A stretch of DNA of 64,000 nt from Actinotalea sp. Marseille-Q4924. GTDB lineage: Bacteria > Actinomycetota > Actinomycetes > Actinomycetales > Cellulomonadaceae. Shown one piece after another: positions 10,972 to 30,639 of this stretch. The notes below the pieces were generated by a model, which was not told the origin of the DNA, did not search any database, and saw only the letters and a list, made by a program, of their open reading frames with translations. Every line of letters begins with the position of its first letter. Within the stretch, counting starts at the first letter, position 1. The position numbers were made by a program, and so were the translations under genes. The DNA lies in contig NZ_CAKAKB010000006.1 in assembly GCF_916618755.1 (NCBI RefSeq), positions 1 through 64,000 of the forward strand. The letters run 5' to 3'.

Positions 10972-11100
10972 CCGTGACCTGCCTCCGTTCGGGGGTGCTG
11001 ACGCCACCCTGGCGGGGTCCGGTCGCGGCCCGGTCGTGGTCCGGTCTCCGACGGCGCGAGGTCGTCCAGCCGCCGCGGCGGGCACCGGGCCGCCGCGTAG

Positions 11101-11120
11101 AGTTCCGTCGAGGGTTCCGC
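11101..11120 (+). repeat. Dispersed 20-bp repeat, copy 1
   Basis: AGTTCCGTCGAGGGTTCCGC. Near-identical copies occur at 30640-30659 and 30704-30723. The preceding 40 or so bases also align between 11062 and 30668 (for example CGTCCAG and CGCCGGGC-like blocks), so the 20-mer is the conserved core of a longer intergenic repeat. Confidence 0.75.
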
Positions 11121-11149
11121 CCAGCGCTCGGTGGCCGAGGCGTGGAGCT

Positions 11150-11214
11150 CCCGGGCCTCCTGGGGGTTCCACCCTTTAGTCGAGACCTGCGGAACCACAC
11201 CGACGTAAGCACCC
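11150..11214 (+). repeat. Left flanking direct repeat of the accessory island (att-like)
   Basis: This 65-base block matches 24623-24686 in the same orientation with only one single-base indel and two substitutions. The core reads GGGGGTTCCACCCTTTAGTC then GAGACCTGCGGAAC. Lower similarity continues on both copies for another 70 bases. GTTCC and GGAAC arms inside can pair. The two copies bracket 13.4 kb of accessory genes, as attachment sites or duplicated insertion ends would, but no recombinase is seen. Confidence 0.75.
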
Positions 11215-11457
11215 GATCTCGGCGTCGGGGAGAACGGCGTCCACACGCTCGCGGAACGCTTTCACCGCGCAAGCGTCATGCCGAACGAACCGGCAAGGCG
11301 CCAGCACTCCTCCCGACGCAATGCCCTTGCTGGTGTGCAGCTCCTGGCTCCCGGTGCGGAAAAGCCTCGCCAGGGCGCTCGCTCGGAGCCGCTGTGTCGG
11401 TCGGTCGGCGTCCGCCGATCCAGACGCACGGGCTCGGACGACCGTGGTGCGACCGCG

Positions 11458-12186
11458 TCAGACGGTAGCCATCTCGTCCTCGACGGCAACAAGCTCGGCG
11501 ATCTTGGTGGCGACAACGGCCATGGAGTCGTCAGAGGTGTTCAACCCGTTCCGCGAGGCCAGCAGGGGGCTGACCTTCCGGAGCTCGTCGTAGGTCGTCC
11601 CGTGAACGACAGGGATGAGCAAGTCGCGTGCGAGGAGCTCGGAGAGCTCCTTGTCAGAGACACCCCGGCTGTCGACGCGCTCCAGCAGTGCAGGGGTGAC
11701 AAGGACGAGGCCGGTACGCGACTTCGCCAGGCCCCTGTCGATCTCTCGCATGAACGGTTGGCCGAGCACGATGTCCTTCTCGCTAAACCAGACTGACACC
11801 CCCTCAGCCGTGAGCAGGGCGTGCAACTCGGTCGCGACACCACGCCGGTCATCCCACGCGTGGCAGAGAAAAACGTCGCGGAGGTCGGGATCTTCGCGCG
11901 CACGCAACTCGGCCGTTCGGCGGACAGGAGTCAGCGCGCGCACTTCGGCAGGCGTGTAGGTCACGGTTGAGGTGCTCGGGGACCAACTCGGCCGCACTCT
12001 GCCGCCGATGGGCGCACCCCCACCGCTCGCGCCGCCCCCTCCGCTGCTCCGCGGCGAGGACGTCGGCCGCGTGTCGTAGTACCAGGACGAGGAGTACCCG
12101 CCGGATCCGCGACCGCCACATGCAGGGCACTTCGCGCGCGCACTCGCCGTGCGATGGCCCCAGACTGGCGCTGTACACCTACTCAT
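11458..12186 (-). CDS. TIR-domain protein with N-terminal zinc-binding-like motif
   Basis: A 242-residue protein. Near residues 3-35 is a Cys/His-rich motif (CTAPVWGHRTASARAKCPAC then GGRG) that looks like a small zinc knuckle. A low-complexity Ser/Gly/Pro linker follows to about residue 65. The C-terminal 140 residues form a TIR domain: DVFLCHAWDDR (strand A, box 1), VWFSEKDIVLG (box 2-like) and a SRTGLVLVTPALL strand. The Glu in WFSEKD is a candidate catalytic Glu of NADase TIR domains. TACACT (complement of 12194-12199) lies seven bases before ATG, so the mRNA may be leaderless. TIR proteins of bacteria often act in anti-phage defence through NAD+ cleavage or cyclic-ADPR signalling; that role is inferred here from the domain and island. 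Confidence 0.85.
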   Translation of the reverse strand: MSRCTAPVWGHRTASARAKCPACGGRGSGGYSSSWYYDTRPTSSPRSSGGGGASGGGAPIGGRVRPSWSPSTSTVTYTPAEVRALTPVRRTAELRAREDPDLRDVFLCHAWDDRRGVATELHALLTAEGVSVWFSEKDIVLGQPFMREIDRGLAKSRTGLVLVTPALLERVDSRGVSDKELSELLARDLLIPVVHGTTYDELRKVSPLLASRNGLNTSDDSMAVVATKIAELVAVEDEMATV

Positions 12187-12288
12187 GACTGAAAGTGTAG
12201 TGGGCGCTGACGCCCCGGGGCTGATCAAGATGGCCCCGACGCGCGGCGCGCGGCCCCGTGGCGACGTGCTCGTGGAACGATCACGCTC

Positions 12289-13042
12289 ATGAGCGACCCC
12301 GAGGTGTGGCAGCAGATCCCCGACGGCTGGCCGGCGGCTCCCGCCGACCTCATCGAGGCAGCAACCCTGCAGGCGCTCAAAGCGCTCAGCGACGACACCA
12401 AGCGACCGGCGAGCGAGCGGCTGGCGCAGTACTACGACCTCGCCGGGAACTTCGCTGGGGCGACCTTCGTAGATCTGCAGCCCAACGATCCGAACGACAT
12501 CACCGCGACCGACCTGCACGCCTTGACTCTCATGAAGGTCGAGGTCCTTGGCGGTGGGACCCGCCGACTCCTGGAAGGGAACACCCACCGTCCAGCGATC
12601 CTCCAGGCCCTGGCCGGGGTGGAGCCAGGACTTGCTGGTGGCCGGCCCCACCGACTTCCTCGCGATGGAGAGGCTGTACCTCGCGGTCCGCGACGCCCTC
12701 TCCGAGCCGGGTGTGAAGAGCCGGAACCAATGGGTCACGGCCTCCAAGCTTTGCGCCCGGAAGCGGTACGACCTGTTCCCGGTACGGGACAGCGTCGTGT
12801 GCACCTACCTGGGCCTGATCCCCTCCAAGGGGAAGGGCAGAGGCAACTACCAGATCGACTACCAGGTGTACCGGGCTCTGATCGGGAACCGGGAGGTCAT
12901 CGAGCGGATCGACGACCTGGTCGACCGGCTGCGGGACGGTGTCCCAGGCCGGGAGGTGCGGCTGGACGGCGGTCGCCTACGCCTGCTGGACGCAGCCCTG
13001 TGGACCTGGGTCGACAAGAGCGAGCTCGCGCGCCGTCGCTGA
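12289..13042 (+). pseudogene. DUF6308-like protein, broken by a frameshift
   Basis: Two overlapping reading frames together make one protein of about 250 residues. The first runs from ATG 12289 through KALSDDTKRPASERLAQYYD and ends its sensible sequence with ILQALAGVEP. The second frame takes over with DLLVAGPTDFLAMERLYLAV and continues to TGA 13042. One extra base at about 12628-12629 (in CCAGGAC) explains the switch. The overall pattern (YYD, RLLEG, KLCARKRYDLFPVRDSVV) looks like the DUF6308 family, whose function I do not know. It may be a real loss or a sequencing error. It is divergent from the TIR gene, with about 100 bases between them. Confidence 0.6.
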
Positions 13043-13074
13043 CTGGGCCGTGAACCGGGAAGTAGCAACCCACC

Positions 13075-13842
13075 GTGTTGTCGAACGCACAGGCCGACGA
13101 AAGGGGCCGTCTGACCGTGGGTGCCGGAGCCTTCCGCGCTGCGACCTGGAACACCGAGTGGCTCCGAAACACGCGACGAGTTCCGGAGGCCCTGGCGGTG
13201 ATCGAGGCGTGGGACGCCGACGTGCTGGTGCTCACCGAGGTGGACGAGGCGCTGCTCGGCCGCTTGAACCTGCATGTCGCGCGAGGCGGGGACGACTGGG
13301 GCTACGGCCACTCCCCTGGGCGGCGGAAAGTCGCGGTGTGCTCCCGGACCCCGTGGCGTGACGTCGACAGTGTTGGTCACCCCGGCCTGCCGGCCGGACG
13401 GTATGTCGCTGCGACGACGGACACCGCCTCCGGACCACTCCGCGTCGTGGGCTTGTGCATACCGTGGCGCGACGCGCACGTCCGCACCGGTCGCCGGAAC
13501 CGGGTCGCCTGGGAGGACCACGCCGCGTACTTGGAGCCGCTACCCGAACTCCTCAAGCAGGAGTCCCTCCGCGGAGCCCTGGTGGTCGCTGGTGACCTGA
13601 ACCAGACAGTCCCCGGCACGCGCTCTCCCCGACCTGTCCAAGACTTGCTGGCTCGGGCGTTCGCAGACCTCGAGATCACCACCGCCGGCCGCTCGTGCGG
13701 GAACCGCCTTCTGGACCACATCGCAGTGACCTCGCACTGGAATCCGCTCGAGGTGGTCCTGGAGTGCCTGGCACACGGCGAGGCCCCGCTGTCCGACCAT
13801 GACGCAGTAGTCGTCACGCTCGAACAGCAGGCCAGCCTTTAG
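13075..13842 (+). CDS. Endonuclease/exonuclease/phosphatase (EEP) family protein
   Basis: A compact 255-residue metal-dependent phosphodiesterase fold. Family landmarks are ATWNTEWLR (Asn, about residue 25), VLVLTEVDE (metal-binding Glu, about 54), VVAGDLNQ (Asp/Asn pair, about 182) and PLSDHDAVVV (Asp-His near the C-terminus). No signal peptide, so the enzyme is cytoplasmic. GTG 13075 gives the full frame; GTG 13117, with AAAGGGG about ten bases upstream, would give a protein beginning just before the first motif and may be the true start. DNA, RNA or a phosphorylated small molecule are all possible substrates. It lies in the defence-like island between a DUF6308 relic and an IS-disrupted gene. 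Confidence 0.8.
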   Translation: MLSNAQADERGRLTVGAGAFRAATWNTEWLRNTRRVPEALAVIEAWDADVLVLTEVDEALLGRLNLHVARGGDDWGYGHSPGRRKVAVCSRTPWRDVDSVGHPGLPAGRYVAATTDTASGPLRVVGLCIPWRDAHVRTGRRNRVAWEDHAAYLEPLPELLKQESLRGALVVAGDLNQTVPGTRSPRPVQDLLARAFADLEITTAGRSCGNRLLDHIAVTSHWNPLEVVLECLAHGEAPLSDHDAVVVTLEQQASL

Positions 13843-13923
13843 CCAATGGTGCCCCGGCCCGCTCACTTCTGGCGCGGGTCGAGGGGCAACCAGGTGTCGG
13901 AGCACCGCAGTAGCCTCCCCAAC

Positions 13924-14168
13924 ATGGCCGAGCCGCCGCTGCCGAACGCTGAAGAGACCGTCACGCTTCTGGACGATCTCATCGCTGAATGGAAGGCCGT
14001 CGACGGACCGATCGACGTACGGGTCGATGGTCACATCTCCCACGCCGTCCACGTGTTCGGGCTTGTCTGCCACACGTACGCGCTGGCCGACGCCGTGCTG
14101 CACCTTCGCGCGGCCGGTCACCATGTGCAGTCGGTACCGCTGATCCGGCAGGCCATGGAAGGGTCTGC
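13924..14168 (+). pseudogene. 5' part of an unknown gene cut by the IS3 element
   Basis: ATG 13924 opens a frame whose first 80 residues look genuine (for example HISHAVHVFGLVCHTYALAD and VPLIRQAME), mostly helical and reminiscent of DUF5677/AbiV-like helical proteins, although that similarity is weak. The frame then runs straight into the terminal inverted repeat of the IS element at 14169 and stops inside it. No continuation is recognisable on the far side of the element, so insertion was probably accompanied by a deletion. TAGCCT at 13911-13916 sits seven bases before ATG, consistent with a leaderless promoter. Confidence 0.6.
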
Positions 14169-14192
14169 TGCACGAGTAGGTGACAGTCGGTC

Positions 14193-15068
14193 TCAGGCGG
14201 CGAGTGCGACCTGAGTGGTCATGATGGTCTCGTACTCGATGGGGGTCAGACGGCCGAGGCGGGCTTGGCGTCGGCGGCGGTGGTAGGTCCGTTCGATCCA
14301 GGTGATGACCGCGATCCGCAGGTCCTGGCGTGTGGCCCAGCGGCGCCGGTTCAGGACGTTCTTCTGCAGGAGCGAGAAGAAGGACTCCATGGCGGCGTTG
14401 TCCCCGGCGGAGGCGACCTGGCCCATCGACCCGACGAGGTCGTGAGCGGCCAGGACGCGGGCCACCTTCCGGCTACGAAATTGGCTGCCGCGGTCCGAGT
14501 GCACCACGCAGCCGGCCACATCGCCGCGACGTTGCACGGCGCTGACCAGTGCGTTCACCGCGATCTGGGAGGTCATGCGGTCGCTGATCGAGTACCCCAC
14601 GATCCGGTTGGAGAACACGTCCTTGATCGCACAGAGGTAGAGCTTGCCCTCGCTCGTGGAGTGCTCGGTGATGTCCCAGAGCCACAGCCGGTTCGAGGCG
14701 TCGGCCGTGAACCGGCGCAGCACGAGGTCGTCGTGAGCAGGAGGGCCGGCCTTCTTGCCGTTCCTCGTGCGCTTCTTGCCGAACACCGACCACCAGCCGT
14801 TGCCCGAGCAGATCCGCCACACGGTCCGGTCGCAGGCGACCTGGCCGGCGCGCCCGGCCTCGTCGGCCAGGAGCCGGTAGCCGAACTCCGGGTCGTCGCG
14901 GTGGGCGTCGAACAGCACGTTCGCGAGGTAGGCCTCCTCGAGCTCGCGGGCACCGATCGGCGCGGCGAGCCAGCGGTAGTAGGGCTGGCGGGCGAGCTTG
15001 AGGACCCGGCACGTCACCGTGACGGGGATCCCGTCAGCGGCGAGCTCAGTCACGAGCGGGTAGATCAT
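14193..15068 (-). CDS. IS3-family transposase OrfB (DDE integrase core)
   Basis: A 291-residue transposase subunit. The N-terminal third is an HTH_21-like region (SRVLKLARQ-type start, YRLLADEAG). The rve integrase core follows, with catalytic Asp in LWLWDITEH (about residue 130), Asp in VVHSDRGSQF (about 193) and Glu in AAMESFFSLLQ (about 229). Its ATG overlaps the orfA stop as ATGA, next to an AAAA run (GGGAAAATGA on the coding strand). This suggests that OrfAB is made by -1 frameshifting, or OrfB by coupled re-initiation, as in other IS3 elements. Confidence 0.92.
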   Translation of the reverse strand: MIYPLVTELAADGIPVTVTCRVLKLARQPYYRWLAAPIGARELEEAYLANVLFDAHRDDPEFGYRLLADEAGRAGQVACDRTVWRICSGNGWWSVFGKKRTRNGKKAGPPAHDDLVLRRFTADASNRLWLWDITEHSTSEGKLYLCAIKDVFSNRIVGYSISDRMTSQIAVNALVSAVQRRGDVAGCVVHSDRGSQFRSRKVARVLAAHDLVGSMGQVASAGDNAAMESFFSLLQKNVLNRRRWATRQDLRIAVITWIERTYHRRRRQARLGRLTPIEYETIMTTQVALAA

Positions 15069-15361
15069 TTTCCCGGCAGGTGCGCCTGGGCGGAGTAGGC
15101 CGCCGCCCGGCGCAGGACCTCGTTCTCCTGCTCCAGCAGCCGGTTGCGGCGCTTGAGCTCTCGGAGCTCGGTCGACTCGCTCGGCGTCGTTCCGGGGCGG
15201 TGACCATCGGCGACATCAGCGGCTTGCAGCCAGTTGCGCAGGCACGACTCGGAGATGCCGAAGTCCTTGGCGATCTGAGCGATCGGGGCATCGCCGCGGC
15301 GGGCCACCGCGACGACATCGTCGCGGAACTCCTTCGGATGGGGTCTGGGCACGGTCAACAT
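15065..15361 (-). CDS. IS3-family transposase OrfA (HTH)
   Basis: A 98-residue DNA-binding subunit. The N-terminal helix-turn-helix (PKEFRDDVVAVARRGDAPIA then FGISESCLRNWLQAAD) recognises the IS ends, and a C-terminal leucine-zipper-like coiled coil (LRELKRRNRLLEQENEVLRR) mediates dimerisation with OrfAB. I used ATG 15361, which begins just before the HTH. A longer frame from GTG 15388 exists but lacks a good ribosome site. The 3' end overlaps orfB by four bases. Confidence 0.9.
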   Translation of the reverse strand: MLTVPRPHPKEFRDDVVAVARRGDAPIAQIAKDFGISESCLRNWLQAADVADGHRPGTTPSESTELRELKRRNRLLEQENEVLRRAAAYSAQAHLPGK

Positions 15362-15553
15362 CCTTCCAGCGGCGCCCTCCGGCACCACAGGTCAGGTGTC
15401 ACCTACTCGTGCATCAGACCCGAAGGAGGTGATACGGCACCTGCGTCCGATCCACCCGGCCGACACCACGGTCCGCTCAGCCCGGGATCACTTCACCCCT
15501 GCATCGGGCAACTGTCCCCGAGTCGGGCACCATCGCACGACTACAGTCGCGCC

Positions 15554-16195
15554 ATGTCGATGAACGGGCGCGTCATTGCGGGCCACTTCCTGAATGCGGC
15601 GGTGACCACGACTCCCATCGGGAATGGCGTGGTCGTCCAATCGGGACTCAAGTGGCGGAAGCTGAACCACGAGCAGGTGGCCGAGTGGGAAGAAGTGCCC
15701 TCCGAGTCGCCGGGCACGTTGAGCGCCGTCGGACAGGCAGTCACCGGCGCGGTCCTCCCCCGCTTCATCAGCAAGGGTGCCTCAGCGGCGGTCGGCGCTG
15801 CCATCGACGCCAACCTGCGGCCCTCGCACACAGTGCGCGTCGACTGGGCGGACGGGAAGCGATCCCTGCTCAAGCTCCCGGATCAGCTGTTCGCGCACCT
15901 GGAAGTCATGCTCAAGGACCGCCGAGCGGCAGTAGCCCCGCCCGTCCCCCATACCTCGGAGCCCGCAGGCTCAGGACTCGCGCCCACAGCCCAGCCCACA
16001 GTCACAGAGCAGGCGTTCTCGCTCGTCTCGGGCCTGCTAAAGGAGCGCAAGGCCGCCCCGTCCACCGGGTCGACCGCTACGGAGAAGCCCGATGTCGCCG
16101 AGCAGCTCATGAAGCTGGCCTCGCTTCGAGATGCCGGTGTACTCACCGACGACGAGTTCGCGGCCAAGAAGGCTGAACTGCTGTCGCGGATGTAA
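15554..16195 (+). CDS. SHOCT-domain protein of unknown function
   Basis: A 213-residue protein. The C-terminal 30 residues (DVAEQLMKLASLRDAGVLTD then EFAAKKAELL) are a SHOCT domain, a short helical module found at the ends of many otherwise unrelated bacterial proteins. The first 115 residues look like a small beta-rich domain with an Ala/Gly-rich hydrophobic stretch near residues 58-78, and a Pro/Ala-rich linker follows. TACAGT (15542-15547) is six bases before ATG, so transcription may start at the start codon. It lies between the IS element and hsdR, reads in the same direction as hsdR, and ends about 95 bases before it. Confidence 0.7.
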   Translation: MSMNGRVIAGHFLNAAVTTTPIGNGVVVQSGLKWRKLNHEQVAEWEEVPSESPGTLSAVGQAVTGAVLPRFISKGASAAVGAAIDANLRPSHTVRVDWADGKRSLLKLPDQLFAHLEVMLKDRRAAVAPPVPHTSEPAGSGLAPTAQPTVTEQAFSLVSGLLKERKAAPSTGSTATEKPDVAEQLMKLASLRDAGVLTDDEFAAKKAELLSRM

Positions 16196-16289
16196 CGCAT
16201 CGCCGAGGAGGACGCCACGACCGCGACGCCTTCGAGGCTCTGACTGGTCTGCCGAGGGCCATCGCAGTCGCGCCACTACGGTTAGGAGC

Positions 16290-19052
16290 ATGCTCGTGGA
16301 GGACGCACCGCGGCTGCCGGCCGAGCAGCGCGCCCGGGTCCTCATCGACGCCCAACTCGTGGCCGCCAGCTGGGTCGTCCAGGACAAGGGGCAGGTCAAC
16401 CTCTTCGCCGGCCCCGGCGTCGCGGTCCGCGAGGTCGTCATGGCCCCCGGCCACGGCCGCATCGACTACCTCCTCTACATCGACAAGCAGGTCGTCGGGG
16501 TCATCGAGGCCAAGCCCGAAGGCACGACCCTGTCCGGCGTGGAGTGGCAGTCCGCGATGTACGCCACCGGCCTGCCCGAAGCGCATGCCAAGCGTGCCGT
16601 CACCGTCGGCGGGCGCCTGCCGTTCGTCTTCGAGGCGTCCGGCACCGAGACGCACTTCACCAACGGCTACGACCCCGACCCCCGCGCCCGCCAGATCTTC
16701 GCCTTCCCCCAGCCGGCCTCGCTCGCACGCGTCCTGCGCGGCGTCGACGACGCGCCGGACGCCCCGACATGGCGAGGCAAGGTGAAGGACCTCCCTTCGC
16801 TGGACACCGACCCGCTGCGGCCGGCGCAGATCGACGCCATCCAGGGCCTCGAGAGCTGCCTCGCCGAGCAGCGGTTCGCGCGATCGCTCATCCAGATGGC
16901 CACCGGAGCCGGCAAGACCTACACCGCCGTCACCGCCGCCTACCGGCTCCTCAAGCACGGCGGCTTCGGCCGCGTGCTGTTCCTGGTCGACCGCAACAAC
17001 CTCGCCGACCAGACCCTGGCGGAGTTCGGGAACTACCGCACCCCCGACGACGGCCGCCGGTTCACCGAGATCTACACCGTCGACAAGCTGTCCAGCGCCG
17101 GGATGCTCGCCAGCTCCAACGTCGTCATCTCCACCATCCAACGCGTCCACCGCGTCCTGTCAGGGGCCGAGGCACCGGACTACGACGACCCCGCCCTGGA
17201 CGGGTGGATTCCCGGCACCCCGGTGACCGTCAACTACAACCCGGCGATGCCACCGGAAACGTTCGACCTGGTGATCGTCGACGAGGCGCACCGGTCCATC
17301 TACGGGGTGTGGCGCTCGGTGCTGGAGTACTTCGACGCCCACATCGTCGGGCTCACCGCAACCCCGGGCCGGCAGACGTTCGCCTTCTTCCAGCAGAACC
17401 TGGTCTCGGAGTACACCTACCCCCAGTCCGTCGCCGACCGCGTCAACGTGGACTTCGACATCTACCGAATCCGCACCGAGAAGACCGAACAGGGCGGCAC
17501 CATCGAGGCCGGGACCGTCGTGCCGAAGGTCGACCGGCGCACCCGCGCCAAGCGGTACGAGACGCTCGACGAGGACCTGGACTACACCCCGTCTCAGCTG
17601 GACCGGGCCGTCACCGCCCAGGGGCAGATCCGCCTCGTCCTCGAGACCTTCCGGGACCGGCTGTTCACCGAGATCTTCCCCGGCCGCTTCAGCGTCCCCA
17701 AGACGCTGATCTTCTGCAAGGACGACGCCCACGCCGAAGAGGTCGTCACCCAGATCCGGGAGGTGTTCGGCAAGGGTAACGACTTCGCCGCGAAGATCAC
17801 CTACGCCGCCAAAGACCCCAAGGGCCAGCTGCAGGCGTTCCGGACCTCCGCCTCCCTGCGGGTCGCGGTGACCGTGGACATGATCGCCACCGGCACCGAC
17901 GTCAAGCCGCTGGAGTGCGTGTTCTTCCTGCGGGACGTGCGCTCGGCGCAGTACTTCGAACAGATGAAGGGCCGCGGCGCACGTACCATCACCCCCGCCG
18001 ACTTCCAGGCCGTGACCCCCGACGCGGAGGTCAAGACGCGGTTCGTCATCGTCGATGCCGTCGGGGTCACCGAGCGCGACTTCGTCGAACCGCCCCTGAA
18101 CCGGGAGAAGGGTGTCTCCCTCAAGCAGCTCCTGGACCGCGCCGGGCAGCTCGTCCTCACCGAGGCCGAGACCGCCACCCTCGCCTCCCGCCTGGCCGCT
18201 CTGGAGCTGCAGCTCACCCCGGACGAACGCACGGAGCTCGACACCGTCGCCGGCGTCCCGCTGCGTACCGTCATCCGAGGGCTGATCGACGCCGTCGACC
18301 CCGACCTGCAGGCCAGGGCGCTCGCCGCCGCGCCCGGTCAAGACCGGGACGACGTCATCGCCGGGCTGGTCGAGACCGCGATCGAGCCGCTGGCCGCCAA
18401 CCCCGAGCTCCGGGCCCGGATCCTCGAGCTGCGGCAGACCCACGAGCGAGTCGTCGATGAGGGCGCCGACGCCCTCATCGACGCCTACGGCGTGGTCGAC
18501 CCCGACCGCGCGCGCGGCATCGTCGAGTCCTGGCGGGCGTACCTGGACGACCACCGCGCCGAGATCACCGCCATCCAGGTCATCGGCGAGGCCCGGACGC
18601 GGGCCGTGCCCTTCGCCAGCCTCAAGGAGCTCGCCGACCGCATCGCCCGCCCTCCGCACAACTGGACCGTGGACATGGTCTGGGCCGCGCACGAGGCCGT
18701 CGACGTCGGCCGCGTCCGCCACAACGACCACGCCCGCCTGACCGACCTGGTCTCCCTGCTCCGGTACAGCCTCGGCGTCGACGGCGAACTGGTCCCGTAC
18801 GCCGTCCGGGTCCGGGAGCGCTACGCCGGGTGGCTCCTGCAGCAGGAGCAGGCCGGAGTCACCTACACCGAGGCGGAGCGGTGGTGGCTGGACCGAATCG
18901 CCGACGTCATCGCCTCCTCCGCCGGCATCACCGACGACGACCTCGACACCGCGCCCTTCACCGAACGCGGTGGCATCGACGGCGCTATCCGCGACCTCGG
19001 CGAACAAGCCGCCACCCTCCTGCACGACCTCAACGAGGAGCTCACGGCGTGA
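16290..19052 (+). CDS. hsdR: Type I restriction endonuclease subunit R
   Basis: Motor and nuclease subunit of a type I restriction-modification complex, 920 aa. The PD-(D/E)xK nuclease is near residues 50-75 (RIDYLLYIDKQVVGVIEAKP). The SF2 helicase follows: Walker A MATGAGKT near 205, VIVDEAHRSIYG near 330, GLTATP near 353, and a motif VI-like MKGRGARTI near 560. The remaining part is the EcoEI-type C-terminal domain that binds the methylase. Two starts compete: ATG 16290, seven bases after TACGGT (16277-16282), fits a leaderless mRNA; GTG 16296, seven bases after AGGAG, fits a normal ribosome site. I used ATG. The specificity gene overlaps its stop. Confidence 0.95.
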   Translation: MLVEDAPRLPAEQRARVLIDAQLVAASWVVQDKGQVNLFAGPGVAVREVVMAPGHGRIDYLLYIDKQVVGVIEAKPEGTTLSGVEWQSAMYATGLPEAHAKRAVTVGGRLPFVFEASGTETHFTNGYDPDPRARQIFAFPQPASLARVLRGVDDAPDAPTWRGKVKDLPSLDTDPLRPAQIDAIQGLESCLAEQRFARSLIQMATGAGKTYTAVTAAYRLLKHGGFGRVLFLVDRNNLADQTLAEFGNYRTPDDGRRFTEIYTVDKLSSAGMLASSNVVISTIQRVHRVLSGAEAPDYDDPALDGWIPGTPVTVNYNPAMPPETFDLVIVDEAHRSIYGVWRSVLEYFDAHIVGLTATPGRQTFAFFQQNLVSEYTYPQSVADRVNVDFDIYRIRTEKTEQGGTIEAGTVVPKVDRRTRAKRYETLDEDLDYTPSQLDRAVTAQGQIRLVLETFRDRLFTEIFPGRFSVPKTLIFCKDDAHAEEVVTQIREVFGKGNDFAAKITYAAKDPKGQLQAFRTSASLRVAVTVDMIATGTDVKPLECVFFLRDVRSAQYFEQMKGRGARTITPADFQAVTPDAEVKTRFVIVDAVGVTERDFVEPPLNREKGVSLKQLLDRAGQLVLTEAETATLASRLAALELQLTPDERTELDTVAGVPLRTVIRGLIDAVDPDLQARALAAAPGQDRDDVIAGLVETAIEPLAANPELRARILELRQTHERVVDEGADALIDAYGVVDPDRARGIVESWRAYLDDHRAEITAIQVIGEARTRAVPFASLKELADRIARPPHNWTVDMVWAAHEAVDVGRVRHNDHARLTDLVSLLRYSLGVDGELVPYAVRVRERYAGWLLQQEQAGVTYTEAERWWLDRIADVIASSAGITDDDLDTAPFTERGGIDGAIRDLGEQAATLLHDLNEELTA

Positions 19053-20341
19053 TCCGCAACGTTCCCCTGTCCGAGCTGCTTAGCGGCACAGGTCAACGCG
19101 GACAGCTGCAGCAGGGATGGAGCCCACAGTGCCTGGCGACGCCTGCACCGGACGACGCGTGGGGTGTCCTGAAGACCACTGCGATCCAGCCCGGTGAGTT
19201 CCTCGCGCAGGAGAACAAGGAGTTGCCGGCCCACTTCGATCCGCGGCCGGAACTCGAGGTGCGCACGGGGGACTTGCTCCTGACGTGTGCAGGTCCACGT
19301 TCCCGATGCGGAGTGCCCACGCTGGTCCGCGCGACGCGACCGAGACTGATGCTCTCCGGCAAGATGTACCGCTTCCAAACGAAGACCGACGTTCTCGATC
19401 CGAGGTACCTCGAGTACTACTTGCTTTCGCCGGACGCGCAGGCCCGGATCGACCGAATGAAGACCGGCATCAGTGAGAGCGGCCTGAACCTCACGAAGCA
19501 ACGCTTCCTCAACCTGCCTGTTCCTGTTGCCTCACCGTCAGAGCAGGGGCGGATCGTCGACATCCTCGAAGACCACCTCTCCCGCCTCGACGCCGCCGCC
19601 AACTACCTCGACGCCGCTTCAAGGCGCGTCAGCCGCCTACGCGAATCGTGGCTTGCGCGATCCCTGCCCACGGGCCTCCCGTCCACCGAGTCGATCACGA
19701 TCGCAGATGCCTTAGTGAGTTCGCGGGGCGGGTGGAGCCGATCGCGCGCGCACCTCGTCGAGCCACCCTCGGGCGTGCCGTACCTCAAGATGCACAACAT
19801 TTCGCGGTCCGGCTCCCTCGAACTGCGAGACGTCGTGCGGGTCGCTGCATCTGACGCGGACGTGGCGCGCTACGGGCTCCGTGACGGGGATGTGCTCTTC
19901 AACTCCAAGAACAGCGGCGATCTGGTGGGGAAGACCGCCGTCGCCGACCGTCGAGTCGCGGGCTGGGTCTTCAACGAGAACATCATGAGGCTCCGATTCG
20001 ACGACCGCTTGCTTCCGTCATTTGTCGGCTTGTGGTTCCAAGGGCCGAGCATGCGACGCCAGATCGTGGAGGCCGCGAGCGCAAGCACGAACGTGGCTGC
20101 GGTTTACATGCACACACTCAGCGGTTTCCGCCTCTGGATTCCGGAGAGGAGCGTCCAGGCCCGACTCGTCGACGAGTTCGAAGCCCTCCAGGGGAGCATG
20201 AGAGGGTGCCTCGACTCGGCTGAAGACAATGCTGCGCGGGTGCGTCGTTTGCGCGCTGCTGTGCTGAGCGCGGCGTTCTCGGGCCGCCTGACCGGCCACT
20301 CGTCCGACCTCGACCGCGCAGAGGAGATGGCGTTCGCATGA
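19049..20341 (+). CDS. hsdS: Type I restriction-modification specificity subunit S
   Basis: A 430-residue protein with the classical two-half design: first target-recognition domain about residues 1-165, a conserved helical spacer (SEQGRIVDILEDHLSRLDAA) about 165-200, a second recognition domain about 215-365, and a C-terminal helical repeat (ARLVDEFEALQGSM then RLRAAVLSAAFSGRL). It would read a bipartite DNA site for both the methylase and the restriction subunit. GTG 19049 overlaps the hsdR stop (GTGA) and its own stop overlaps the next ATG. The gene order R-S is unusual because hsdM is separated from it by three other genes. Confidence 0.93.
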   Translation: MIRNVPLSELLSGTGQRGQLQQGWSPQCLATPAPDDAWGVLKTTAIQPGEFLAQENKELPAHFDPRPELEVRTGDLLLTCAGPRSRCGVPTLVRATRPRLMLSGKMYRFQTKTDVLDPRYLEYYLLSPDAQARIDRMKTGISESGLNLTKQRFLNLPVPVASPSEQGRIVDILEDHLSRLDAAANYLDAASRRVSRLRESWLARSLPTGLPSTESITIADALVSSRGGWSRSRAHLVEPPSGVPYLKMHNISRSGSLELRDVVRVAASDADVARYGLRDGDVLFNSKNSGDLVGKTAVADRRVAGWVFNENIMRLRFDDRLLPSFVGLWFQGPSMRRQIVEAASASTNVAAVYMHTLSGFRLWIPERSVQARLVDEFEALQGSMRGCLDSAEDNAARVRRLRAAVLSAAFSGRLTGHSSDLDRAEEMAFA

Positions 20342-21367
20342 GCAACGTCTGGGGCGTCCACAACGACACGCTCACCACCGAGCTCTTGGACGAGGGCTTC
20401 GTCAGCATCGGCTGGGACGACCTCGGCGACCTCAACGCCCTCCCACCCGGCCGTGACGCTCAAGGCCGCTCTCGCAGCCTCCCGCCCCGAGGACAAGCCG
20501 GGCGCCATCGCGACATGGGCGGGCACGCTGAACCGCTTCCGCGACGAGATGCAGCCCGGTGACGTCGTCGTGGCCCCGTACAAGCCGGACAGCACGATCA
20601 ACATCGGCATCGTGTCAGGGCCGTACACCTACGTCGCCTACGCTCCCACTCATCGCCATCGTCGGTCGGTGGCGTGGAAGAAGGTGGGCGTATCCCGCAC
20701 CGTCTTCACTCAGCCGGCCCTCTACGAGCTCGGTGCCTTCCTCACCGTGTTCCGGATCCGCCGCAGCGCCGCCGAGTTCCAGGCCGTGCTGGAGGCGACC
20801 GACGACTCCGTCGAGGGCGTGACTCGCCTGGTTGAGGAGGTGGCGCACCGGACGTCGTCGGACGCAGAGACCACGGACGAGCCGCGCGCCTCGCGGATCG
20901 AGCGACACACCCGCGACTTCGTCCTTGAGACGCTTCAGAAGCGGCTGACGCATGCCGAGTTCGAGGAGTACACGGCCGACCTGCTCCGCTCGCTCGGCTA
21001 TCAGGCGCGGGTTACGGCGTACAGCCGGGACGGCGGCGTCGACGTCGTGGCGCACCGCGACCCCCTCGGCGTCGAGCCCCCGCTCATCAAGGTGCAGTGC
21101 AAGCACCAGACCGGCGCGATCGGGGCGCCGGACGTCCAGCGCCTCATCGGCAGCCAGGGCATGAACGAGCTCTCCCTGTTCGTCACCCTGGGCTCCTACA
21201 GCCGCGACGCGGTGAGTATCGAGCGCACCCGCAGCGGCCTCCGACTGCTCACGGGCGAGGACGTCGTCACGCTCACCCTCCAGAACTACGCCGCGCTCCC
21301 CCAGCGCTGGCGGTCCCGCATCCCGCTGACATCAGCACTCGTCGTCGACGACGCCGCCGACTCCTGA
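20338..21367 (+). pseudogene. Mrr-like restriction endonuclease with PUA/EVE-like N-terminus, frameshifted
   Basis: One protein in two frames. The frame from ATG 20338 (WGVHNDTLTTELLDEGFVSI and GWDDLGDL) gives way near 20458 to a second frame beginning LKAALAASRPEDKPGAIATW and running to TGA 21367. A loss of two bases or gain of one explains it. The joined product would be about 342 residues. An N-terminal domain (WAGTLNRF, GDVVVAPYKPDSTINIG) resembles PUA/EVE-type nucleotide readers. The C-terminal Mrr-type nuclease contains FEEYTADLLRSLGY, GGVDVVAHRD and KVQCKHQ, the DxxxQ-K-like core of restriction endonuclease-like folds. ATG 20338 overlaps the hsdS stop. It may be inactivated, or the assembly may have an error. 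Confidence 0.75.
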
Positions 21368-21460
21368 GGACGGTGCGGGCCCGGCCGCCAGGAGTGCGCC
21401 ACAATCGTCGTGTCGGTGCCCGCTGAGACCATGGCTGCGGGATCGACAGAGGAAGAGGTC

Positions 21461-21640
21461 ATGACGCAGATCACCTACTTGACCAAGGACGACATCGCGC
21501 GCCGCCGGGCGGAGCTGCTCGATCGCGCAGGGCTGAACCTGGACGAGCTGCGTGGGCGTGGAGCCACGTACCAGCTCTCCCCTGAGCAGGCGGTGATCCT
21601 CAAGGAGCTGGAGGACCTGGAGTTCCTCGCCGGTGCCTGA
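21461..21640 (+). CDS. Small protein paired with the next gene (antitoxin-like)
   Basis: A 59-residue, strongly charged helical protein (TKDDIARRRAELLDRAGLNL, ELEDLEFLAG). GGAAGAGG at 21451-21458 supports ATG 21461. The following gene starts eight bases before its stop, so translation of the two is coupled. Size, charge, coupling and position before a larger unknown gene are like the antitoxin of a toxin-antitoxin pair, or a small regulatory subunit. I have seen similar small proteins in actinobacteria but know no function. Confidence 0.6.
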   Translation: MTQITYLTKDDIARRRAELLDRAGLNLDELRGRGATYQLSPEQAVILKELEDLEFLAGA

Positions 21641-22379
21641 GCCCACGCCACAACGCCTCGTCGCTAAGGTCGAGGAGTTCGCAGACGAGCTGGGAGCACT
21701 GCTTTCCGGCGTCTTCCCCGGGCAACACCCTGACTTCCTCGCACGCGTCACCGAGGGCGAGTCGACGCTCGTGATCATCGAGCAGGACCCACCCACGGGG
21801 ATCGAGCTGACCGCAGCCGAGGAGCCCCTGCTACGGCTTACGGCCTCGTACCGCTGCTCCTGGGACCACGCAGGTGAGTTCCTGGCGGTGCTCGAGTCGA
21901 CCTTTGCCGTCTTCACGTCGCAGTCCGACGAGCCCCTTTTCCGGTACGACTTCATCGAGTCCGACGGCAAGGTGCCCGGCGCACACCTCAACGTCCACGG
22001 TCATCGCGACGAGATGGTCTTCGCGCTGACGAGCGCCGGCAGGCGGCTTCGGGGCCGAGCGCGCTCCGCCACGGTCAGCCGCGGCCGCGTCCCCCGGCTT
22101 GCCTCCTTCCACTTCCCGCTGGGCGGGCCGCGTTTCCGTCCGTCGCTCGAAGACGTCGTCGAGATCGTGGTTCGCGAGTTCGGCCTCGACACCAATCCGG
22201 GTTGGGAGCGGGCCGTGCAGACCGGTCGCTCAGCATGGCGGGAGAAGCAGCTCCGCTCAGCGGTGCGTGACGATCCCGAGTCCGCTGCTGACACCCTTAC
22301 CAGTCTGGGCTACACCGTCTCGTGGCCCGACGGCCAGGAGCGGCGCCCGCGCCGCGACGAGCGAATCCTTGCCCTCTGA
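21633..22379 (+). CDS. Unknown 248-residue protein inside the hsd operon
   Basis: A soluble protein with no signal or membrane segment. The N-terminal 130 residues mix strands and helices (VIIEQDPPTGIELTAAEEPL, FRYDFIESDGKVPGAHLNVH). A conserved-looking His-rich spot, HLNVHGHRDE, is near residues 118-127. The second half has a basic patch (RLRGRARSATVSRGRVPRL), then SFHFPLGGPRFRPSLEDVVE, which I remember from uncharacterised actinobacterial proteins. GTG 21633 overlaps the small upstream gene. It may be the effector half of a two-gene module carried within the type I restriction locus. No function can be assigned from sequence. Confidence 0.6.
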   Translation: MPEPTPQRLVAKVEEFADELGALLSGVFPGQHPDFLARVTEGESTLVIIEQDPPTGIELTAAEEPLLRLTASYRCSWDHAGEFLAVLESTFAVFTSQSDEPLFRYDFIESDGKVPGAHLNVHGHRDEMVFALTSAGRRLRGRARSATVSRGRVPRLASFHFPLGGPRFRPSLEDVVEIVVREFGLDTNPGWERAVQTGRSAWREKQLRSAVRDDPESAADTLTSLGYTVSWPDGQERRPRRDERILAL

Positions 22380-22402
22380 GACGAGCGAGTCCTTGCTTCT
22401 GA
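22356..22402 (+). repeat. Imperfect tandem duplication across a stop codon
   Basis: GACGAGCGAATCCTTGCC plus CTCTGA (22356-22379) is followed directly by a 23-base near copy (22380-22402) that differs at a few positions. The first copy contains the stop codon of the preceding gene; the second lies in the leader of hsdM, 25 bases before its start. Confidence 0.7.
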
Positions 22403-22426
22403 ACCGTGAACACAAAGGAGCAGCCA

Positions 22427-23923
22427 GTGGCCGACGCACGCCGCCTGGTCGACAAGCTGTGGTCGTACTGCAACGTGCTGCGCGACGACGGCGTCGGCAC
22501 GCTGGAGTACACCGAGCAGCTCACCTACCTACTGTTCCTGAAGATGGCCCATGAGCGGGCACACCGCCCCCTCAAGCCGGAGAAGATCGTCCCCGACAAG
22601 TTCTCCTGGCAGCGCCTCCTCGACGCCGACGGTGTCCAGCTCGAGTTCGAGTACACCCGGATCCTGCTTGGCCTCGCGCAGCAGCCAGGCACGCTCGGCA
22701 CGATCTTCCGCAAGGCGCAGAACCGCATCCAGGACCCCGCCAAGCTCAAGCGGCTCATCCACGACCTCATCGACGCTGAGCAGTGGTCGCAGGCGGGTGT
22801 GGACATCAAGGGCGACGCCTACGAGTCCCTGCTCTCCAAGGGCGCCGAAGACATCAAATCCGGAGCCGGACAGTACTTCACGCCGCGACCGCTCATTCAG
22901 GCGATGGTCCACTGCGTCGATCCCACCCCGGCGGACACCGTGACCGACCCGGCTGCCGGAACCGGCGGGTTCCTGCTGGCGGCCCACGAGCACGCATCCC
23001 GTGACGCCGCCGACCTCGACCCCTCGCAGCGTAACCACCTGCGTGACGGATTCGTCCATGGTGTCGAGCTGGTCGACGGAACCGCTCGTCTGGCTGCCAT
23101 GAACCTTCTGCTGCATGGCATCGGGCAGCCCAACGGCGACTCCCTCATCGAGGTGAAGGACTCCTTGATTGCCGACCCCGGTCGGCGGTGGACCGTCTGC
23201 CTGTCCAACCCGCCCTTCGGACGCAAGTCGTCCCTGACCATGGTCGGCGCGGACGGACGCGAGGTCCGCGAGGACAGGGAGATCGAGCGGCAGGACTTCG
23301 TGGTCACCACTTCGAACAAGCAACTCAACTTCCTGCAGCACATCATGACCATCTTGGAGATCAACGGGCGCGCGGCGGTCGTCTTGCCGGACAACGTCCT
23401 GTTCGAGGGAGGGGCCGGCGAAACCCTCCGCCGGCGGCTCCTGCGGGACTTCGACCTGCACACAATGCTGCGCCTGCCCACGGGCATCTTCTACGCTCAG
23501 GGCGTCAAGGCCAACGTCCTGTTCTTCGACAAGAAGCCCGCCGCCGAGCGCCCGTGGACCGACCGCACATGGGTCTATGACCTGCGCACCAACCAGCACT
23601 TCACGCTCAAGCAGAACCCGCTCACGCGAGCGGCACTCGACGCCTTCGTGCAGTGCTACGCCCCCGGCCGACCACGAGCAGAGCGGGTCGAGACCGAGCG
23701 ATTCCACGCCTTCACCTACGACGAACTCGTCGCCCGCGACAAGGCCAACCTCGACATCACCTGGCTACGGGACGAGTCGCTCGAGGACCTCGACAACCTC
23801 CCGGCACCTGAGGTGATCGCCCGCGAGATCGTCGAGGACCTCACGGCCGCTCTTGCGGAGTTCGAGGCTGTCGCAGTGGCCCTGCAGAAGGCCGGCCAGA
23901 CCTCGTCGGGCGAGGAGACGTGA
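22427..23923 (+). CDS. hsdM: Type I restriction-modification methyltransferase subunit M
   Basis: N6-adenine DNA methyltransferase subunit, 498 aa. An N-terminal HsdM helical domain (about residues 5-130) precedes the catalytic domain, with AdoMet motif I DPAAGTGGF near residue 174 and catalytic motif IV NPPFG near 261. The C-terminal part is the region that docks HsdS. GTG 22427 is chosen because AAGGAG lies six bases upstream; GTG 22406 is in frame but without a ribosome site. It is in the same direction as hsdR and hsdS, about 2 kb downstream of hsdS, and overlaps the next gene by four bases. Confidence 0.95.
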   Translation: MADARRLVDKLWSYCNVLRDDGVGTLEYTEQLTYLLFLKMAHERAHRPLKPEKIVPDKFSWQRLLDADGVQLEFEYTRILLGLAQQPGTLGTIFRKAQNRIQDPAKLKRLIHDLIDAEQWSQAGVDIKGDAYESLLSKGAEDIKSGAGQYFTPRPLIQAMVHCVDPTPADTVTDPAAGTGGFLLAAHEHASRDAADLDPSQRNHLRDGFVHGVELVDGTARLAAMNLLLHGIGQPNGDSLIEVKDSLIADPGRRWTVCLSNPPFGRKSSLTMVGADGREVREDREIERQDFVVTTSNKQLNFLQHIMTILEINGRAAVVLPDNVLFEGGAGETLRRRLLRDFDLHTMLRLPTGIFYAQGVKANVLFFDKKPAAERPWTDRTWVYDLRTNQHFTLKQNPLTRAALDAFVQCYAPGRPRAERVETERFHAFTYDELVARDKANLDITWLRDESLEDLDNLPAPEVIAREIVEDLTAALAEFEAVAVALQKAGQTSSGEET

Positions 23924-24483
23924 TAGCGACACCGGCGCTCCGCGACACGCCCGGCGGTGAGCTGGCGGCGTGGACCCACATGTGGATGGTCGCGGCTTCG
24001 CTGACGCTCGAGCACCTCGAGGACTCGTGGGTGGACGCAGAGCCCGCGAGTTCGATCGGCGGGCGCGACGCGCTGTCGCTCGTCGTGATCGACGCGGTCC
24101 GCAACGTCTACCGCGGCGCCAAGGCAACCCTGCCGCGCGACTCTCCCGCCCTTGCGCGCTTCGATGGCGCACATCCTCAGCTGGTTCGCATCCGCGACTT
24201 CTTCGAGCACTTTGACGAGTACGTCGCCGGTCGAGGGAGGATCCAACAGAAGGCTGGGACTCCCGCCGACGAAGGCATCGGCATGCAGTGGAAGCGCAGC
24301 GCGAGCGGCGGCCCCAGCGGACACACCATGGTCATCGCCGTCCGAGAAGGTGGCGAGCGCGCGGAGTACGAGGTCAACGCCACCCTGGCCGTGAAGGCGG
24401 CCCAGATGCTCGCGCGTGCAGTCCTGGAGCATGCTGGACTCTTGGACGCCCGACACGTCGGCGCGTGTCGCTACTGCCGTTGA
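23920..24483 (+). CDS. Unknown protein translationally coupled to hsdM
   Basis: A 187-residue soluble protein starting at GTG 23920, whose GTGA overlaps the hsdM stop. It is mostly helical (WTHMWMVAASLTLEHLEDSW, PQLVRIRDFFEHFDEYVAGR), ends with a CRYCR motif, and has a glycine-rich basic loop (MQWKRSASGGPSGHTMVIAV). I recognise no family. The tight overlap suggests a part in the restriction system (an accessory or control protein) or passenger status at the operon end. It is the last gene before the right flanking repeat. Confidence 0.55.
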   Translation: MIATPALRDTPGGELAAWTHMWMVAASLTLEHLEDSWVDAEPASSIGGRDALSLVVIDAVRNVYRGAKATLPRDSPALARFDGAHPQLVRIRDFFEHFDEYVAGRGRIQQKAGTPADEGIGMQWKRSASGGPSGHTMVIAVREGGERAEYEVNATLAVKAAQMLARAVLEHAGLLDARHVGACRYCR

Positions 24484-24622
24484 CTGCCCGGCGCCGGAGC
24501 ATGACCCCGGACACCGCACATCCGGCGGGGTTGGCGGGCACGTACGCTGGGCGACGGTGGCAAGCACCCGTAGGAAGTCTCGAGCGTTCTCCCTTGGGTT
24601 GTTTCAGTGAATCCCTGCTTGT

Positions 24623-24686
24623 CCCGGGCCTCTGGGGGTTCCACCCTTTAGTCGAGACCTGCGGAACGACACTGACGTAAGCACCC
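24623..24686 (+). repeat. Right flanking direct repeat of the accessory island (att-like)
   Basis: A 64-base block that matches 11150-11214 in the same orientation, apart from one indel and two substitutions. Like the left copy, it is followed by about 70 bases of weaker similarity (GGAACG, TTCACCG, GGCGTAACGCCGA). An inverted partial match, GACTAAAGAGTGGAACCCCC, lies at 30738-30757, touching tRNA-Lys. Confidence 0.75.
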
Positions 24687-24921
24687 ACACCCTGCGTCAG
24701 GCGGAACGGAATCGGGCCGCCGACGGAACGGGTTCACCGTCCAGGCGTAACGCCGAGGGCCCGTGAGTGTTGGGTCATGGGTGCGCCGGGGGACACGGGA
24801 CACGCATGCGCCCAGTTCCCCCAGGAGCTGGCTTCCCTGACGTCGGGAACGCACCGTTGCGCGGTAGCGCGCGCATGGCATCCGCCGGGAATCCGGGCCG
24901 TTCACCGCTTAGCACTCCACC

Positions 24922-24955
24922 GAACGCAGGACACACCAGAACGCGGGACACACCA
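24922..24955 (+). repeat. 17-bp tandem repeat, two copies
   Basis: GAACGCAGGACACACCA (24922-24938) is followed directly by GAACGCGGGACACACCA (24939-24955), with one difference. It lies in non-coding DNA between the island boundary and the trk gene. Confidence 0.7.
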
Positions 24956-25028
24956 GAGCCTCCACTGAACCCGGGGCGGTTCACTCCGCTGCGCAGCCAA
25001 CGATGCGGTGCCCGATCGGATCTGCGGC

Positions 25029-26486: not shown

Positions 26487-26643
26487 GGGGCTCCCACGAC
26501 GGGCCGGGCTCGGATGTCCGGCGGTTCCACCTCCGACTATCGGACGCGCGGGGTCATGGGAGGACCGCAGGAGGTCCCGAACGGCCCATCCTTGACGTTT
26601 TCCTAACGCCGCAGGCCGACCCCGGACCCGCCCTGCAGGCGGC

Positions 26644-27324
26644 TCACTCGAAGAGGTAGCCCTGGCCCGGGCGGGTGAGCAGGTGGACAGGGCGCGAGGA
26701 GTCGTCCTCGAGCTTGCGGCGGAGCTGGGCGGCGTAGACCCGCAGGTAGTTCACCTCGGTCGTGTACGCGGGCCCCCAGACCTGGGCGAGGATCTCCTGC
26801 GGGGGCACGACAGCGCCGCGGTGCCGGGCGAGGACCTCCAGGAACGACCACTCCGTGGGGGTCAGCCGCACCTCCAGACCGCCGCGGTGCACGCGCTTCC
26901 GCGCCAGGTCGACACGCAGGTCACCGGACTCGACGAAGAGGTCGGTCTCGTCCGTCGGGGCCGCGCGGCGGACGGCGGCCCGCAGGCGGGCCATGAGCTC
27001 GTCCGCGGCGAACGGCTTGGTCACGTAGTCGTCGGCACCGGCGTCCAGCGTGTCGACCTTGTCCTCCCGGCCGCGGCGCGCGGACAGCACGACGACGGGC
27101 ACCTCACTCGTCTGACGCAGGTGGGCCAGGACCGTCAGGCCGTCGATGTCCGGCAGCCCGAGGTCCAGCACGACGACGTCCGGGGACTCCCGAGCGGTTG
27201 CGTGCAGTGCGCCTGCGCCCGTCGTCGCGGTCGACACCCGCCAGCCGTGGGCGCGCAGGGTGATGGTCAGCACCCGCAGGAGGGCGGCGTCGTCGTCGAC
27301 CAGCAGGACGTGGCGGCCGTTCAC
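26644..27324 (-). CDS. OmpR-family response regulator, KdpE-like
   Basis: A 226-residue response regulator. The receiver domain (residues 1-120) has the acidic pocket LLVDDD, phospho-acceptor Asp54 in VVVLDLGLPD, and Lys in YVTKPF. A winged-helix output domain occupies about 125-226 (RLTPTEWSFLEVLARHRGAV, YLRVYAAQLRRKLEDD, the latter characteristic of KdpE). It overlaps the kinase gene by four bases, so the two form one two-component system. It lies 158 bases upstream of the trkH-like gene in the same direction, which suggests that it controls K+ uptake through Trk rather than through KdpFABC, none of which is in this window. Confidence 0.9.
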   Translation of the reverse strand: MNGRHVLLVDDDAALLRVLTITLRAHGWRVSTATTGAGALHATARESPDVVVLDLGLPDIDGLTVLAHLRQTSEVPVVVLSARRGREDKVDTLDAGADDYVTKPFAADELMARLRAAVRRAAPTDETDLFVESGDLRVDLARKRVHRGGLEVRLTPTEWSFLEVLARHRGAVVPPQEILAQVWGPAYTTEVNYLRVYAAQLRRKLEDDSSRPVHLLTRPGQGYLFE

Positions 27325-29979: not shown

Positions 29980-30099
29980 CCCACATCGCCCATGGACGGT
30001 GGCACCAGAACGGCAACGCGCTCAGAGCCAGGTGGCCGCAACCCTGATCTGCCGCAATGAGGGCGGCTACGCTCGCCCGTGACGGGACCTCGTCGTGGT

Positions 30100-30232: not shown

Positions 30233-30302
30233 CTGATTGCGGTGTGATCACCGACCCCGGTGGGCGAGTGCCGCGGTGCGGCGGCGGGGCAGGATGGGTG
30301 GC

Positions 30303-30605: not shown

Positions 30606-30639
30606 CCGGCGAGCTACGGGAAACGGACAGCCGCGACAT

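Follow-up and report, generated by a model that had tools for sequence, protein, structure and literature searches.

Probable stacked elements at the 5′ end of a tRNA-Lys gene point to a transposon-like family in Actinomycetes that may pair a disabled tyrosine recombinase with a DDE-like protein

Results and Discussion

Element Ends in Front of a tRNA-Lys Gene

We analyzed 64,000 nucleotides of Actinotalea sp. Marseille-Q4924 (contig NZ_CAKAKB010000006.1; this whole stretch is referred to as the window) and were concerned with the DNA that precedes an intact tRNA-Lys(TTT) gene on its plus strand (30757–30831), which we read as a stack of mobile elements. The original prediction had placed an accessory island between two near-identical direct repeats, from 11150 to 24686. 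Alignment of 11150–11214 with 24623–24686 gives the two substitutions and one indel that had been described, and blastn of the two repeats returns 136 columns at 80% identity; the similarity had been said to continue beyond the blocks on both sides, which holds rightward, up to 11284 and 24756, but not leftward, where there is none. At 11 kb, the GC content declines from 0.77 to 0.68; an increase follows after 25 kb. A core motif of the repeat, GTTCCACYCTTTAGTC, occurs three times in the whole 3.64-Mb genome when up to two mismatches are allowed, each time within the window, whereas the reversed motif, used as a control, does not occur at all. This rules out a common dispersed repeat with many copies at unrelated loci. 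With a 251-base query, the genome yields one more match, only 40 bases long and located on contig C3 (85%, E 4e-4), which concerns the flank and not the repeat; a 101-base repeat query against 39 relatives returned only a 21-base match in one of them (G005), which we take as chance.

The third copy, overlooked in the original prediction, lies inverted on the minus strand at 30737–30756 and directly adjoins tRNA-Lys. In the light of this copy, we regard both direct repeats as left ends in the same orientation and the inverted copy as a right end. The sole element of the window in which both ends are recognized is then E2 (24634–30756; 6,123 bp), which terminates at the tRNA: mobility is supported, as is the reading of the repeats as a mobile element's duplicated ends, while the proposed unit of 11150–24686 has to be given up, so that the earlier observation is real but its boundaries differ. 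That this unit moves as one island through its two direct repeats appears quite improbable: the repeats are near-identical and homologous recombination across 65 bp could delete the intervening DNA, but both represent the same end, the left flank at 11.15 kb corresponds to an old right end, and the partner end sits at the tRNA.

E2 carries inverted ends and is flanked by an exact 8-bp duplication. The left copy of this duplication, GGGCCTCT (24626–24633, plus strand), equals nucleotides 1–8 of tRNA-Lys, which themselves (30757–30764) form the right copy. It is followed by the left end LE2 (24634–24756, plus strand), whose counterpart is the right terminal inverted repeat that abuts the tRNA (30737–30756, reading GGGGGTTCCACTCTTTAGTC on the minus strand). 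The inverted repeats match at 20 of 24 positions including the first ten without exception, and none of 300 shuffles of end plus repeat reached the score of E2 with LE2. The right end additionally contains five 12-bp boxes of the GTTCCG type (30640–30739, plus strand; starts at 30640, 30652, 30704, 30716, and 30728), all five being read from the sequence and four of them recovered by pattern search.

At 11.16 kb, the left end LE1 (GGGGGTTCCACCCTTTAGTC..., 11162–11284, plus strand) heads a region designated E1 (11162–24625). It is immediately preceded by GGGCCTCCT (11153–11161, plus strand), a copy of the tRNA-Lys 8-mer with one extra base, and this in turn by the degraded right end of an older element, E0 (11019–11152, plus strand), with two 12-bp GTTCCG boxes at about 11101–11124. 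The flank left of LE1 resembles the tRNA-proximal end (30.66–30.76 kb), unlike the flank of the copy at 24.6 kb; local alignment of the two right ends scores 61, with 35 as the best of 1000 dinucleotide shuffles. The 11.16-kb copy constitutes a tandem junction of old right end, tRNA 8-mer, and new left end (0/1000 shuffles). Since a decayed right end and a tRNA 8-mer precede LE1, E0 lay leftward; its left end was not found in the contig, which starts at window position 1. Alternatively, a single 19.6-kb element could span 11162–30756, and 24626–24756 would then be what remains of an insertion inside it: the right end pairs equally well with LE1 and with LE2 (20/24 positions), and no right end is seen at 24625. 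We nevertheless consider this rather unlikely, as the exact 8-bp repeat is found at LE2, whereas LE1 is accompanied only by a 9-mer with an extra base.

On balance, we assign a probability of roughly 70% to the reading that the window holds stacked elements of a transposon-like family associated with tRNA 5′ ends. These elements would insert exactly at the first base of a tRNA gene and duplicate its first eight nucleotides, and successive insertions at tRNA-Lys would have left E0 as the oldest and farthest (right end at 11152), followed by E1 (from 11162) and finally by E2, with both of its ends intact, beside the tRNA. A Pfam scan of 13 island open reading frames agrees with the earlier statement that no site-specific recombinase is encoded inside the island, where only an IS3 was recovered, and neither E2 nor the other window elements possess the gene pair described below. 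The window copies were thus presumably moved in trans, as non-autonomous elements, or are relics; loss of the enzyme or movement in trans had both been anticipated.

A Predicted Duplication in Actinotalea lenta

In Actinotalea lenta (G008) a right end adjoins tRNA-Arg(TCT). From the model of the window, the first eight nucleotides of this tRNA should recur next to an inverted end: the 8-mer ACGGGGGC has two occurrences in 39.8 kb, both strands included, one at the tRNA and one 23.4 kb away, directly beside GGACTAAAAGGTGGAAGCCCC. The A. lenta element accordingly measures 23,373 bp and is bounded by an exact duplication of tRNA-Arg(TCT) nucleotides 1–8; its far end is diverged and is missed by searches that use the end sequence alone. 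The cargo includes a type I restriction subunit, beside which we read further open reading frames as putative specificity and methylase subunits. On the tRNA side, the element carries two gene pairs, each combining a protein of about 300 residues that resembles tyrosine recombinases (Y-like) with one of about 500 residues. In the pair whose strand reads toward the tRNA, the DDE-like protein (about 500 residues) comes first and the Y-like protein (305 residues) second; the pair that reads in the opposite direction starts with a 300-residue Y-like protein followed by a protein of 488 residues. These are two diverged pair copies in divergent orientation within one element (locus L137, 1795–6828).

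tRNA 5′ Ends and Paired Ends across Actinomycetes

A profile built from three DDE-like proteins matches 16 of 394 genomes of the class, the genome of the window not being among them. A tRNA gene follows downstream on the same strand in 11 of these 16: tRNA-Arg(CCT) in G827, G805, G873, G770, G912, G750, and G639, tRNA-Arg(TCT) in G622, tRNA-Lys(TTT) in G638 and G719, and tRNA-Gly(CCC) in G222. The distance from the end of the gene to the tRNA amounts to 140–221 bp in six cases, to about 235–255 bp measured from the end of the match in four, and to 1.4 kb in G750. In the 13 loci fetched for nine of these genomes, all tRNAs present are precisely these neighbours (7/7). Outside A. lenta, the order is Y-like gene, DDE-like gene, tRNA.

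Both ends together with an exact repeat of tRNA nucleotides 1–8 are found in four elements, namely E2 of the window, the 23,373-bp element of A. lenta, one of 3,378 bp in G912, and one of 1,410 bp in G622. They score 19–23, and a score of at least 19 is reached by 4 of 14 contexts compared with 5 of 4200 shuffles. A fifth case was added post hoc: in G873, GGCCCCCG, corresponding to tRNA positions −1 to +7, stands directly before GGGACGT about 31.5 kb away, and on the 176-kb contig upstream of the tRNA the 8-mer occurs five times, the 7-mer ten times, and the two together once. Tandem stacking recurs in G622, where a junction of right end, 8-mer, and left end (0/1000 shuffles) leads into a short element, which is closed by a further right end and followed by an 8-mer and tRNA-Arg. 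When the flanks left of five left ends are compared with the right end, two are alike (window 11162 and G622), and those of G912, A. lenta, and window 24634 are unlike.

A link to plasmids is provided by G770, whose 110-kb contig is identical (100%) to pMK12478 over 30,027 bp, with the shared stretch ending one base short of tRNA-Arg. Because of this identity, the same DNA exists both on a plasmid and at a tRNA start, unless the G770 contig is misassembled. A search downstream of the gene for a signature of joined ends on two mycobacterial plasmids and at three other loci gave nothing convincing. At the G770 locus (L174), 43 bp of the 3′ part of tRNA-Arg are also repeated 4.2 kb downstream (30061–30103 and 34302–34344 in the oriented locus), which resembles a 3′-end integrase element, so that one tRNA has perhaps been hit at both ends.

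Relatives' Loci and the tRNA Promoter

The end itself was also sought in relatives. A relaxed end pattern matches 24 of 221 genomes of the family, and among the 22 loci besides those of the window's genome and A. lenta, a tRNA start is abutted only in G004. With one mismatch allowed, five others of 396 genomes of the order match the end pattern, none of them adjoining a tRNA start. The exact 18-base end pattern was recovered from genome contigs of A. lenta and of one Bacteroidales metagenome-assembled genome, where it has no tRNA and is taken as chance; viral contigs gave no match. As in the window, tRNA-Lys lies upstream of CNNM genes in four of the eight CNNM loci fetched from relatives, and a right end is present at tRNA-Lys in one of these four, that of the closest relative, G004. 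In the other three (G005, G018, and G006), the full end was not seen in the 200 bases before tRNA-Lys, with a fragment, GGGTTCCAC, preceding the tRNA in G005 and G018. No empty site for the window was seen, one genome per species being searchable.

These loci bear on the possibility that no mobile element exists at all, the tRNA-proximal sequence being the native tRNA promoter inherited by descent and the left copies chance duplications. It would account for the presence of the sequence at tRNA-Lys of G004, where other genes lie upstream, for the fragment in G005 and G018, and for the finding that 9 of the 14 right ends have TANNNT boxes 45–85 nucleotides upstream of the tRNA (mean of 3.0 and at most 8 among 1000 shuffles; the range was chosen post hoc). 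Against this, A. lenta has the same sequence in front of tRNA-Arg, no full end is seen preceding tRNA-Lys of G005, G018, and G006, and the sequence has a counterpart at the other end of the element, accompanied by an exact 8-bp repeat; we consider this explanation very improbable. Under the transposon reading, the boxes acquire a different meaning: an insertion at nucleotide 1 cuts the tRNA off from its old promoter, so that the right end, which would replace the displaced upstream region, may supply a new one. The evidence for such a promoter is suggestive only.

The Gene Pair

The Y-like proteins of about 300 residues agree in fold with tyrosine recombinases (E 9e-12 in a profile comparison with XerD), give weak Pfam integrase-domain matches in 7/9 and 4/9, and include the 300-residue protein of A. 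lenta with a PHROG integrase match; in three annotated records, the proteins of the pair bear the names 'hypothetical protein', 'integrase' or 'site-specific integrase'. Key catalytic residues are missing: the first arginine and the histidine of the HxxR motif are retained in none of nine proteins, the second arginine in three, and the C-terminal box lacks its tyrosine in six, the expected position of this tyrosine being that of XerD. In the DDE-like proteins of about 500 residues, an aspartate, a second aspartate, and an R-x3-E motif are invariant in 9/9, which we take to be the pattern of IS4-type DDE transposases; one weak match to IS1182 (E 0.016) stands among comparably weak unrelated matches. 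No match to rve, AAA, or TniQ was obtained for the module proteins scanned, which do not include every gene of the A. lenta element.

As to their distribution, the Streptomyces DDE-like protein has matches on six plasmids, the 504-residue protein has one weak plasmid match, and the 305-residue protein has none. No phage matches were found for the module proteins, and their viral relatives comprise a single contig. On two mycobacterial plasmids (L191 and L192, 2443–5308), a divergent helix-turn-helix gene lies directly upstream of the pair, and the two genes of the pair share a few bases, in the manner of a regulated operon; in Streptomyces (L136, 2161–7491), two genes separate the helix-turn-helix gene from the pair.

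Proposed Mechanism

Related elements thus encode a module consisting of a protein with a tyrosine recombinase fold but without key catalytic residues and of a candidate DDE-like transposase. In the mechanism that we propose, the DDE-like protein would bind the inverted ends, perhaps through the 12-bp boxes, and join them to the target via cuts staggered by 8 bp, whereas the disabled recombinase would recognize the start of the tRNA gene and aim its partner at it, i.e., act as a target selector that recruits the transposase. Terminal inverted repeats combined with a duplication of fixed length, as expected of DDE transposons, are seen in four elements above the shuffle control and post hoc in the fifth. 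The ends of the window and of A. lenta are nearly identical, yet they flank GGGCCTCT and GCCCCCGT, respectively, and those of G622 and G912 likewise differ in their 8-mers. Because alike ends flank different 8-mers, and a staggered cut duplicates whatever is present, and because at least two catalytic residues are missing from every recombinase-like protein, DDE-type cutting rather than site-specific exchange is the probable chemistry.

The competing mechanism would be the integration of a circle by a tyrosine recombinase at an 11-8-11 core (GTGGAACCCCC-8 bp-GGGGGTTCCAC) centred on the tRNA 5′ end. Joined E2 ends would indeed yield a perfect core with an 8-bp centre, the Y-like gene is present in related elements, a tyrosine near the expected place and the second arginine each survive in 3/9 proteins, tRNA genes are usual sites of tyrosine integrases, and the same DNA occurs on pMK12478 and at a tRNA. 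We still judge it distinctly unlikely: the first arginine and the HxxR histidine are gone in 9/9 and the box tyrosine in 6/9, the conserved triad belongs to the other protein, and alike ends are combined with different 8-mers and different tRNAs, although exchange normally needs a matching core.

Several observations weigh against the proposed reading, both for the window and for the family. The right end of E1, expected at 24625, is unrecognizable (310/1000 and 873/1000 shuffles score as well), and it is here that the stacking model of the window is weakest; identification of this end as an end of the G805 type (31/2000 shuffles, uncorrected for ten comparisons) is not claimed. The module is absent from the genome of the window, and machinery and window ends are linked only via A. 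lenta. There, the two genes of the pair on the tRNA side are in the opposite order, and the 305-residue protein belongs only weakly to the Y-like group (E 4e-4 against the 300-residue protein, no match to that of Streptomyces). No tRNA was found beside the match in 5 of 16 genomes (G598, G799, G654, G701, and G925, the matches in G701 and G925 reaching contig edges) nor beside the S. mirabilis plasmid copy or the viral contig. The far end was not found in 9 of 14 contexts, and that of G873 failed the general score (83/300 shuffles). With regard to the proteins, a tyrosine three residues past the expected place is present in G770, G873, and G222, so that these three are not proven to have lost the nucleophile; the DDE-like proteins have neither a Pfam match (9/9) nor a PDB profile match in support of an RNase H-type DDE fold, and an AlphaFold model of one of them has a mean predicted local distance difference test score of 39.9 and is unusable. 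The DDE assignment consequently rests on the invariant residues and the ends.

Comparison with Known Systems

For TnsF of Tn6022, a Tn7-like element, and for the Tsy transposon, it is described that a tyrosine recombinase domain which has been inactivated chooses the fixed chromosomal target of a transposase from a different class; TnsF bears zinc fingers at its N terminus, is directed to comM, and acts with TnsA, TnsB, TnsC, and TniQ (PMC10293859). The Y-like proteins share with TnsF a tyrosine recombinase fold without key catalytic residues and, as proposed, the choice of a fixed site. They differ in that a protein of about 300 residues lies next to a single DDE-like gene and that the site is a tRNA 5′ end. 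TnsF of Tn6022 is in our assessment the closest precedent and the sole described parallel that we found. Homing to tRNA genes is likewise known from CRISPR-associated and Tn7-like transposons, in the described case 30–33 nucleotides downstream of the tRNA end (PMC10293859), which resembles our elements in the use of tRNA genes as safe sites and differs from the insertion at nucleotide 1.

Membership in the Tn7-like group is a separate question. A TnsB-type (rve) transposase with TnsC and TniQ is missing from the module proteins scanned, and the direct repeats measure 8 bp here, compared with the 5-bp target duplication of Tn7-like elements including Tn6022. The gene pair would thus work like the TnsF system while falling outside Tn7 on the features tested. 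Islands that tyrosine integrases build at tRNA genes carry defence cargo and accrete in tandem, but typically involve the 3′ half of the tRNA and an active integrase. The elements described here are alike in target, cargo, and tandem accretion; they duplicate nucleotides 1–8 (−1 to +7 in G873) instead of the 3′ part, and an active R-H-R-Y recombinase is lacking, with the first arginine and the histidine missing in 9/9 module proteins. With IS4-superfamily transposases the DDE-like proteins share the D, D, R-x3-E signature, whereas their Pfam match count is 0/9. No literature description of the gene pair or of its insertion at tRNA 5′ ends was found in a search outside of which most subscription papers lay.

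At slightly below even odds, we put forward only tentatively that a distinct transposon family of Actinomycetes exists, in which a DDE transposase that belongs to no known family is guided by a catalytically disabled tyrosine recombinase to nucleotide 1 of tRNA genes with an 8-bp duplication, the right end replaces the upstream region, repeated hits create tandem stacks of defence and transport cargo, and some members reside on plasmids. If true, this would be a compact system of two genes that chooses its site at conserved tRNA starts almost to the nucleotide, and a further, independent example of target selection by a disabled tyrosine recombinase; gene islands in Actinomycetes with a boundary at a tRNA 5′ end would also find a simple account. 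A genome-wide search for further members can be based on the ends and the 8-bp rule.

Flanks and Cargo of the Window

The flanks of the island had been called core-like, which they do not appear to be: the gene on the left, coding for a BTAD/nSTAND protein of 1737 residues, is unmatched in the other 18 genomes of the genus at E ≤1e-100, a threshold that leaves weaker homologues aside, and trkH, found in ten genomes of the genus at 64–70% identity, is without a tRNA at all ten fetched loci. In the window, TrkH, a K+ transporter (25029–26486, minus strand), belongs to the cargo of E2, together with a response regulator (26644–27324) and a DUF4118 histidine kinase (27321–28685), both on the minus strand, and an aldo/keto reductase (28978–29979, plus strand).

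The cargo of E1 comprises a ThsB-like TIR protein, a DUF6308 protein, an EEP nuclease, an IS3, a SHOCT protein, and a type I restriction-modification system with Mrr. The latter occupies 16131–23923 on the plus strand, with HsdR at 16131–19052, HsdS ending at 20341, an Mrr-like protein at 20453–21367, and HsdM at 22406–23923. In the TIR protein (11458–12804, minus strand), residues 207–441 match ThsB (PADLOC, E 2e-103); among the PADLOC matches listed for eight scanned proteins of E1 there is no ThsA, so that this Thoeris TIR protein is possibly an orphan. DNA of E1 is shared by 55 plasmid records, and the 20 matches listed consist of IS3 matches and one methyltransferase match. The DUF6308 gene (12289–13053 and 12548–13042, plus strand) contains an apparent frameshift, where the Pfam match stops and the coding signal continues in another frame. 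Finally, the IS3-family insertion (14161–15421) has inverted ends of 25 nucleotides, and an open reading frame on the plus strand (13846–14214) enters its left end at 14161 and may have been truncated by the insertion.

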